Part shown: positions 32,106 through 34,828 of the stretch, piece by piece
How positions within the stretch are numbered: the first letter of the stretch is position 1
Layout: every line of letters starts with the position of its first letter
NCBI GenBank assembly: GCA_018710985.1
Contig: DVIV01000034.1
Span: 1-64,000 of the forward strand
Source: Candidatus Limiplasma pullicola
Lineage (GTDB): Bacteria > Bacillota > Clostridia > Christensenellales > Aristaeellaceae
DNA: 64,000 nucleotides
Reading direction: 5' to 3'
Position numbers and translations under genes: made by a program
Notes under the pieces: model-generated
What the model was told of the DNA's origin: nothing
The model's database searches: none
Seen by the model: the letters and a program-made list of their open reading frames with translations, nothing else

Positions 32106-32133
32106 TTGACAGGGGGCAAAAGCGGTGTACAAT
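32106..32133 (+). promoter_or_regulatory. Promoter TTGACA-N16-TACAAT upstream of lysine riboswitch
   Basis: Near-consensus hexamers immediately before the riboswitch. Confidence 0.75.
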
Positions 32134-32164
32134 AAAGAAGAATTTGGCGCGGATATCCGCGCCG

Positions 32165-32335
32165 GAGGAATAGAGGCGCGGCCGACATCAGTCCCGCGCG
32201 GGAGCCCTTCACCGGGCTGTGACCGCGCGAAAAAGGGGAGGCCGCCGAAGCGCCGGACCGGGTGAAGGATCTGTGCGCTGGGCGTCGGGAAAACATCCCG
32301 CCGACTGTCACGGCTCTGCCGTGGAGCGCTATTCG
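32165..32335 (+). ncRNA. Lysine riboswitch (L-box) aptamer
   Basis: Conserved core blocks AATAGAGGCGCGG, AAAAAGGGGAGGCCGCCGAAGC, GCTGGG, GACTGTCACGG and CCGTGGAGCGCTATT in the expected order. Confidence 0.92.
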
Positions 32336-32359
32336 CACGTTTCCATATCATGTGGATCA

Positions 32360-32397
32360 AAGCGGCAATGGCGCATACCATTTGCCGCTTTTTTCAT
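32360..32397 (+). terminator. Riboswitch expression-platform terminator
   Basis: AGCGGCAATGG-cgcata-CCATTTGCCGCTTTTTT. Confidence 0.88.
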
Positions 32398-32423
32398 TAC
32401 CAACTAAGGAGGAACGAGGCATC

Positions 32424-33230
32424 ATGAAAAAGGTTCTTGCAGTCATTCTTTCGGCCCTTCTGCTCCTGTCCTGCACGGCCGCCCTGGCGGAGGGCACCTT
32501 CCGCGTGGGCATGGAGTGCAACTACGCGCCCTACAACTGGACCCAGGCCGAGCCCAGCGAGTTTGCCGTGGCCATCGAGGGCGGCGGCGGATATGCCGAC
32601 GGCTACGACGTGCAGATCGCCAAGCGCATCGCCGAGGGACTGGGCAAGGAGCTTGTGATTGTCAAAACCGAATGGGACGGCCTGCCCATGGGCGTGATGA
32701 GCGGCGCGTTTGACGCCATCATCGCCGGCATGAGCCCCACCGAGGAGCGCAAGGCCACCCTGGATTTCAGCGACCCCTACCGCACCAACAAGCTGGTCGT
32801 GGTCATGAAGAAGGACAGCCCCTACGCCTCCGCCACCAGCCTGGAGGATTTGAGCGGCGCCAGCATCACCGGCCAGCTCAACACCTTCCACTACACCGTG
32901 ATCGATCAGATCCCCGGCGTGAACAAGGCCATGGCCATGGAGACCTTCCCCGCCATGATCGTGGCCGTGCAGAGCGGCGCGGTGGACGGCTACGTGGCCG
33001 AGGAGGACGGCGCGCAGGCCGATACCGCCGCCAACCCGGACCTGATCTACGTCAAGTTTGACGAGGGCAAGGGCTTTGAGGCTTCCGAGGCCGATACCTC
33101 CATCGCCGTGGGCCTGGCCAAGGGTAGCGAGCTGCTGGCCCCCATCAATGAGATTCTCGCCGGCATCGACGATGCGACCCGCGATGAGCTCATGGCCGGC
33201 GCCAAGGAGCGCCAGCCCCTCAACCAGTAA
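32424..33230 (+). CDS. Amino-acid ABC transporter substrate-binding protein (predicted lysine)
   Basis: Signal peptide MKKVLAVILSALLLLSCTAALAEG; SBP family 3 motifs YDVQIAKRIAEGLGKELVIVKTEWDGLPMGVMSGAFDAIIAGMSPTEERK; downstream of lysine riboswitch. Confidence 0.92.
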   Translation: MKKVLAVILSALLLLSCTAALAEGTFRVGMECNYAPYNWTQAEPSEFAVAIEGGGGYADGYDVQIAKRIAEGLGKELVIVKTEWDGLPMGVMSGAFDAIIAGMSPTEERKATLDFSDPYRTNKLVVVMKKDSPYASATSLEDLSGASITGQLNTFHYTVIDQIPGVNKAMAMETFPAMIVAVQSGAVDGYVAEEDGAQADTAANPDLIYVKFDEGKGFEASEADTSIAVGLAKGSELLAPINEILAGIDDATRDELMAGAKERQPLNQ

Positions 33231-33235
33231 TCCGC

Positions 33236-33270
33236 ACGGGGGAACGCGCCGCACTGGCGCGTTCCCCTTC
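33236..33270 (+). repeat. Intercistronic stem-loop between SBP and permease genes
   Basis: GGGGAACGCGCC-gcact-GGCGCGTTCCCC perfect 12-bp stem. Confidence 0.8.
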
Positions 33271-33300
33271 CCATGTTCCAATGCCAAAGGAGTTGCCCGC

Positions 33301-34095
33301 ATGTCAGCATTACCAACCACCTTTTTCGGCTGGGTCGGCTTTATTCTGGACAAGTACGGCACGCTGTTTTTAAGCGGCGTGGGCGTTACGCTGCTGGTGG
33401 CCATCACGGGCACCGTGATCGGCTTCGTCATCGGCCTGCTGGTGGCCATTTTGCGCACCATTCCCGTTGCCCCACGCGACCCGTGGTACAAGCGCGTGCC
33501 CCTCAAGGTGCTTTCCGGGCTGCTGAACGTATATATCGAGGTGTTCCGCGGCACGCCCATGATCGTGCAGGCCATGGTCATCTACTACGGCAGCATGCAG
33601 ATGGGTCTGCGCATGCCCGTGCTGGTGGCGGCGGTGCTGATCGTGTCGGTCAATACCGGCGCGTACATGGCCGAAATCCTGCGCGGCGGCATCATCAGCG
33701 TGCCCAGGGGCCAGAAGGAGGCTGCCTGCGCCATCGGCATGACGCACTGGCAGAGCATGGTGCATGTGGTGCTGCCCCAGGCCGTGCGCAACATCATGCC
33801 CTCCATCGGCAACGAGTTCGTGGTCAATATCAAGGACTCCAGCGTGCTCAACGTGATTTCCGTCAACGAATTGTTCTTCATGAGCAAGTCTGCCGCGGGC
33901 ACCTACCTGCGCTACTTTGAGGTGTTCTTCATCACCGCGTGCATCTACCTGGTGCTCACCTTCACGGTGACGCGCCTGCTTCGCCTGCTGGAGCGCAAAA
34001 TGGACGGCAAGACCAACTACATCATCTACGGTTCCCAGAGCGATTCCAAGGCGTCCATCGTGGTGCCCAAAGAAGGAGGCGTGCCCAATGACTGA
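33301..34095 (+). CDS. Amino-acid ABC transporter permease (predicted lysine)
   Basis: [91 protein letters not shown]. Confidence 0.94.
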
Positions 34096-34828
34096 TGCGC
34101 CCATTTTGAGCGTCAGCCACCTCAAAAAGAGCTTCGGCGAGCACGAGGTGCTGCGCGATATCTCCTTTGACGTCAGCCAGGGCGACGTGGTCAGCATCAT
34201 CGGCGCCAGCGGCAGCGGCAAGAGCACGCTGCTTCGGTGCATCAACTTTCTGGAGCAGCCCACCGCCGGCACCATCCTCTTTCAGGGCAAAAACGCCGAA
34301 ACCCAGTGGAGCCGTGCCCAGTACCACGCCAGGGTGGGCATGGTGTTCCAGAGCTTCAACCTGTTCGGCAACATGAGCGTGCTCAAAAACTGCGTGGTGG
34401 GGCAGATGAAGGTGCTGGGCCGCGCCCGCCGCGAGGCCGAGGAAAAGGCCCTCATGTACCTGGAAAAGGTGGGCATGGCCCCCTACCGCGACGCGCGCCC
34501 GGCCCAGCTTTCCGGCGGCCAGCAGCAGCGCGTGGCCATCGCCCGCGCCCTGGCCATGGACCCGGAGGTGCTCCTCTTTGACGAGCCCACCAGCGCGCTT
34601 GACCCCGAAATGGTGGGCGAGGTGCTGGGCGTGATGCGCGACCTGGCCGCGTCGGGCCTGACTATGCTGGTGGTCACGCACGAAATGGCCTTCGCCCGCG
34701 ACGTCAGCCGCCGCGTCATCTTCATGGACGCGGGCGTGATCGCCGAGGACGGCGCGCCGCAGGAGATCTTCGTGCATCCCCGGCAGGCCCGCACCAGGGA
34801 GTTTCTCAGCCGCATCTTGCAGAAGTGA
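34088..34828 (+). CDS. Amino-acid ABC transporter ATP-binding protein (predicted lysine)
   Basis: [63 protein letters not shown]. Confidence 0.95.

Follow-up and report, generated by a model that had tools for sequence, protein, structure and literature searches.

The L-box RNA of Bacillus lysC illustrates the control of a biosynthesis gene by lysine, where a full aptamer of five helices, with a kissing interaction between its loops L2 and L3, is combined with a choice between terminator and antiterminator that depends on the helix P1. RNAs of the same kind are also found in front of transporters. In a survey of complete genomes, lysine riboswitches were located upstream of the lysX-lysY ABC transporters (PMC5584792), which are polar amino-acid systems of the COG0834 type, and in Clostridioides difficile the same regulatory RNA is associated with LysW, a secondary transporter of the NhaC family (PMC11477304). 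NhaC-type LysW proteins are published candidates for lysine transporters whose function is debated (PMC5584792; PMC11477304).

The locus described here is contained in a stretch of 64,000 nucleotides from Candidatus Limiplasma pullicola, which was analysed as a whole and is termed the window. It very probably encodes an RNA switch that shuts off an uptake pump when lysine is plentiful. The RNA resembles the L-box of Bacillus lysC in the described features of aptamer and switch but it controls a transporter. As in lysX-lysY, this transporter is a polar amino-acid ABC system under a lysine riboswitch, although its substrate-binding protein (SBP), permease and ATPase are encoded by separate genes and the clade is known mostly from metagenome-assembled genomes. 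With LysW it shares the regulatory RNA and presumably the physiological role, whereas the two transport proteins are unrelated. A riboswitch-controlled ABC amino-acid transporter is thus of an already published kind, and the parts that a specialist might not expect are a hairpin at the 5' end of the leader and the replacement of the transporter within the genus.

Results

The order of elements at the locus is promoter, lysine riboswitch, intrinsic terminator and the genes for SBP, permease and ATPase, the latter being located directly 3' of the riboswitch. The leader contains the following features:

32106–32133, + strand: sigma-A type promoter, with TTGACA at 32106–32111, a spacer of 16 nucleotides and TACAAT at 32128–32133, agreeing with the consensus at 11 of 12 positions
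32143–32166, + strand: 5'-terminal RNA hairpin UUUGGCGCGG-AUAU-CCGCGCCGGA, one nucleotide before P1 (dG −16.8, z about −5)
32163–32339, + strand: lysine riboswitch aptamer (L-box), matching RF00168 over its full length (model positions 1–182 of 182) with 91.5 bits
32168–32173, + strand: 5' strand of P1, GAAUAG, with its partner at 32329–32334, from cmscan alignment, folding and covarying pairs
32207–32213, + strand: kissing loop L2, CUUCACC, a perfect complement of 32261–32267 over 7 nucleotides
32261–32267, + strand: kissing loop L3, GGUGAAG, the perfect complement of L2
32326–32342, + strand: 3' strand of P1 and linker, constituting the 5' half of the antiterminator, which pairs with 32360–32374 (duplex −19.5 kcal/mol)
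32360–32394, + strand: intrinsic terminator hairpin and U-run (dG about −17), whose 5' arm and loop constitute the 3' half of the antiterminator

The promoter is the sole match of the sigma-70 type between 31900 and 35300 and nearly all relatives contain one in the equivalent position. Downstream of the terminator, the sequence AAGGAGG (32406–32412) is followed by the ATG of the SBP gene at 32424. An earlier, sequence-only reading had placed a promoter, a lysine riboswitch and a transporter operon in the interval 32106–34828, and we find this interval to be right and the promoter to be present with near-consensus elements. The terminator that it had proposed ahead of the SBP gene is equally present, although the start codon is located 29 rather than 27 nucleotides past the U-run.

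The assignment of the riboswitch is based on a covariance-model search of the whole window with cmscan, where it is accompanied by a single tRNA as the only other Rfam match. Its E value of 8.2e-23, computed for 64 kb against 4227 families at a cut-off for RF00168 of 30 bits, implies that the match is not due to chance, and it is the one lysine riboswitch found in the whole assembly (2.78 Mb, about 95% complete). An alignment of 26 aptamers defines the standard form with the helices P1–P5, with both-sided changes in at least one sequence at 35 of the 46 consensus pairs and a five-helix junction core (AGAGG, GCCGAA, GG, CUGUC and the GCU closing P1) that is conserved between the window and 25 relatives. 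The complementarity of L2 and L3 is kept in many relatives despite changed sequence, as in the pairs CUUUGCC/GGCAAAG and CUUAAC/GUUAAG. In the loop E (sarcin-ricin) strand of P2, the window contains AGUC compared to the usual AGUA/GAA, a variant that is also found in L004 and L005. While the identification as lysine riboswitch was thus borne out, the peripheral helices unlike the Bacillus form that had been ascribed to it were not, since the whole Rfam model is matched by a standard P1–P5 aptamer and the departure resides in the 5' hairpin outside of the aptamer and the RF00168 model.

The terminator is GC-rich and composed of a 5' arm (32361–32371), a loop (32372–32377), a 3' arm (32378–32389) and a U-run extending to 32394. 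It was not detected in a simple terminator scan, probably owing to its bulged stem, and terminators were therefore located by folding, with a script that found one in most relatives. P1, antiterminator and terminator form mutually exclusive helices, with a predicted stability of −19.5 kcal/mol for the antiterminator duplex 32326–32342/32360–32374 compared to about −17 for the terminator. Unlike in Bacillus lysC, this antiterminator extends beyond P1 into the preceding GCG; a recent covariation model likewise describes more overlap with the aptamer than in B. subtilis lysC (PMC13273304). Upon stepwise folding of the leader, P1 is found until position 32372, the antiterminator at 32376–32386, and P1 together with the terminator once the latter is complete. 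In the completed leader, the fold containing P1 and the terminator (−121.0 kcal/mol) and the antiterminator fold (−119.7 kcal/mol) are separated in silico by just 1.3 kcal/mol. Since the ON and OFF folds are nearly equal in energy, a stabilization of P1 by the ligand would decide the outcome, as expected from established L-box work. The antiterminator covaries in relatives, with own antiterminator pairings averaging −15.8 compared to −13.0 in swapped combinations and 0 of 2000 permutations being as good, in a set of 36 leaders from the same order and relatives. Antiterminator pairing of the window type is weak in distant leaders of Bacillales and Clostridium.

The operon comprises three genes and a further RNA hairpin:

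32424–33230, + strand: substrate-binding protein of the SBP_bac_3 family (PF00497) with a secretion or lipoprotein signal (LLLLSC), predicted to bind lysine
33238–33268, + strand: intercistronic hairpin between the SBP and permease genes, with no U-run (dG −27.7)
33301–34095, + strand: polar amino-acid ABC permease of the HEQRo family (TIGR01726 above cut-off; PF00528, BPD_transp_1)
34088–34828, + strand: ABC ATPase of the GlnQ/HisP type (ABC_tran), with an 8-nucleotide overlap with the end of the permease gene

For the SBP, no curated substrate-specific model reaches its cut-off and all remain far below, as illustrated by the best NCBIfam match, TIGR01096 for lysine/arginine/ornithine SBPs, with 83.7 bits at a cut-off of 256. 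The AlphaFold model of the protein (pLDDT 92) has as PDB neighbours ArtI (4ymx), AbpA (4i62), ArgBP (4prs), ArtJ (2q2a) and LAO (1lst), which are closest in fold and sequence, although with identities of only about 20–30% and with a ligand that in the window protein is predicted. A pocket comparison by alignment does not separate lysine from arginine or ornithine. Strong intercistronic hairpins are found at the site equivalent to 33238–33268 in many relatives, and in the window this element may lead to the production of more SBP than permease.

The linkage between riboswitch and SBP extends across the Bacillota. RF00168 is located just upstream in 15 of the 15 nearest SBP homologues, and a model built in this analysis detects the riboswitch upstream of 46 of 80 homologues, which span Bacillus, Neobacillus, Paenibacillus, Clostridium and Syntrophomonadaceae; the 34 without a switch include L055, whose contig begins inside the gene. 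On the SBP tree, the presence of the riboswitch changes 7 times compared to 25.6 times in shuffles. A subclade that is devoid of the riboswitch (e.g. L062–L086) apparently carries a plain promoter and a short leader. The host genome encodes DapB, which scores above its cut-off, and a LysA-like protein that does not reach its own, and the bacterium thus probably also makes lysine, with the respective genes not being under riboswitch control. The linkage provides a substrate prediction for a Bacillota-wide SBP subfamily to which no substrate is assigned by curated models.

Within the genus, the ABC operon is replaced under the same RNA switch by a lysine-transporter type that is unrelated to it. 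In the 17 genus genomes, including that of the window, an ortholog of the SBP is found in 9 and a strong NhaC match (E<1e-45) in 7, with both occurring together in 0 of 17 and neither in one genome that is 65% complete; no NhaC was found in G000. The genomes that contain the riboswitch have either the ABC operon (9) or an NhaC-type gene (6) under its control but never both, and in these six NhaC genomes the match is located about 0.7 kb past the switch on the same strand. In L007 (G014), the NhaC gene fills the same slot behind tex as the ABC operon, and in L030 (G001) an NhaC-type LysW candidate likewise takes the place of the operon under riboswitch control. Deep-tree linkage, replacement by NhaC/LysW, nearest folds that belong to binding proteins for arginine and lysine, and the precedent of lysX-lysY together give good comparative support to the predicted function of the operon as lysine importer, which the sequence-only reading had proposed from the riboswitch. 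A different arrangement is found in L019 of the same family (G026), where a DppA/OppA-like SBP_bac_5 gene directly follows a lysine riboswitch, which suggests a lysine-regulated peptide uptake system.

The hairpin at the 5' end of the leader recurs in the clade of the window, where 72% of 25 riboswitch leaders contain a hairpin with z<−2 compared to 8% of control stretches taken 60 nucleotides further on or upstream. In a phylum-wide survey of 90 lysine riboswitches of Bacillota, a hairpin with a dG of −7 or better was found in 72% compared to 19% for the control region. In this survey and in SBP leaders of Bacillales and Clostridium, the hairpin has the form UACCUCAUCUC-loop-GAGGUGAGGUA, where the 3' arm is the 5' strand of P1 itself. 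That strand pairs equally well with the hairpin arm (−10.4) and with the 3' strand of P1 (−10.3), with such an arm found in 75 of 104 leaders. Hairpins that compete with P1, as in the Bacillus-type lysine riboswitch, are seen in most Bacillota and among the leaders L119–L208, whereas the hairpin abuts P1 in the window and its clade; an abutting hairpin like that of the window is also found in E. coli lysC (CCTGCGCTAGCGCAGG). The hairpins were aligned with MAFFT, which takes no account of structure, and within the clade almost every species has a different hairpin sequence. The literature that we searched, which stops short of the founding L-box papers, contains no description of the hairpin, and a study from 2026 on covariation across entire riboswitches never has the word 'upstream' in its text.

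Discussion

Our analysis makes it highly probable that a lysine-responsive OFF riboswitch controls, by transcription attenuation, an importer composed of SBP, permease and ATPase that mainly takes up L-lysine, where we infer the binding of lysine by the aptamer, the OFF direction and the identity of the transported substrate. In the proposed mechanism, the segment 32326–32342 would leave P1 in the absence of lysine and pair with the terminator at 32360–32374 (5' arm and loop), so that RNA polymerase could continue into the genes of the importer. Binding of lysine would lock P1 and free the arm of the terminator, and the hairpin 32361–32389 with its U-run would form and stop transcription ahead of the SBP gene. 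The opposite logic, where lysine promotes read-through and the transporter would serve either export or uptake for catabolism, has precedent in a small number of lysine riboswitches that are reported to act as ON switches (PMC2258182). It is very improbable in the present case, where the antiterminator uses the 3' strand of P1, so that stabilization of P1 favours the terminator, and where the transporter belongs to the SBP-dependent ABC systems, which import. A degenerate aptamer that no longer binds lysine and leaves the operon constitutive might be suspected from the unusual loop E and from a score of 91.5 bits, which is below that of many relatives (up to 142). Such decay is hardly credible in light of the columns that are invariant across the 26 aligned aptamers, all of which are intact, as are the kissing loop and the switch helices, and of the almost unchanged leader in the close relative L029.

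The alternative that deserves most attention concerns the substrate, since a riboswitch of the OFF type could also control a transporter that mainly takes up a different cationic amino acid or several of them, such as arginine, ornithine and histidine, with lysine acting as one of the regulatory inputs. The best PDB matches of the SBP are arginine binders, and proteins of the ArtJ and LAO type bind several cationic amino acids. Still, no sensor of another metabolite was found on the operon, the lysine sensor has been kept over a deep tree, the transporter that replaces the operon is LysW, itself a predicted lysine transporter, and the 15 loci of riboswitch-less homologues that were scanned contain no Rfam match of any kind, be it a T-box or another sensor. 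We thus regard a main substrate other than lysine as unlikely, and favour L-lysine in this role.

For the 5' hairpin, we tentatively propose, with somewhat less than even confidence, that it constitutes a conserved third element outside of the aptamer, which in most Bacillota would capture the 5' strand of P1 and set the threshold for switching, whereas in the clade of the window it would have moved just upstream, where its role would be stacking on P1 or protection of the mRNA 5' end. If functional, it would be a natural part of the switch that is lost from constructs starting at the Rfam aptamer boundary. Two other explanations were considered. That such hairpins are common to mRNAs of this lineage in general is only weakly supported, with hairpins of z<−2 at 25% of other promoters of the clade compared to 3–14% of controls; the corresponding value for other promoters in the Bacillales/Clostridia group is 7%. 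A DNA operator is unlikely, since the sequence of the hairpin differs in nearly every species of the clade and its loop varies in length. Elsewhere in the window, two further promoter-like sites (around 51749–51795 and 54224–54330) are each immediately followed by a hairpin, the second of them preceding the tRNA gene at 54250–54330.
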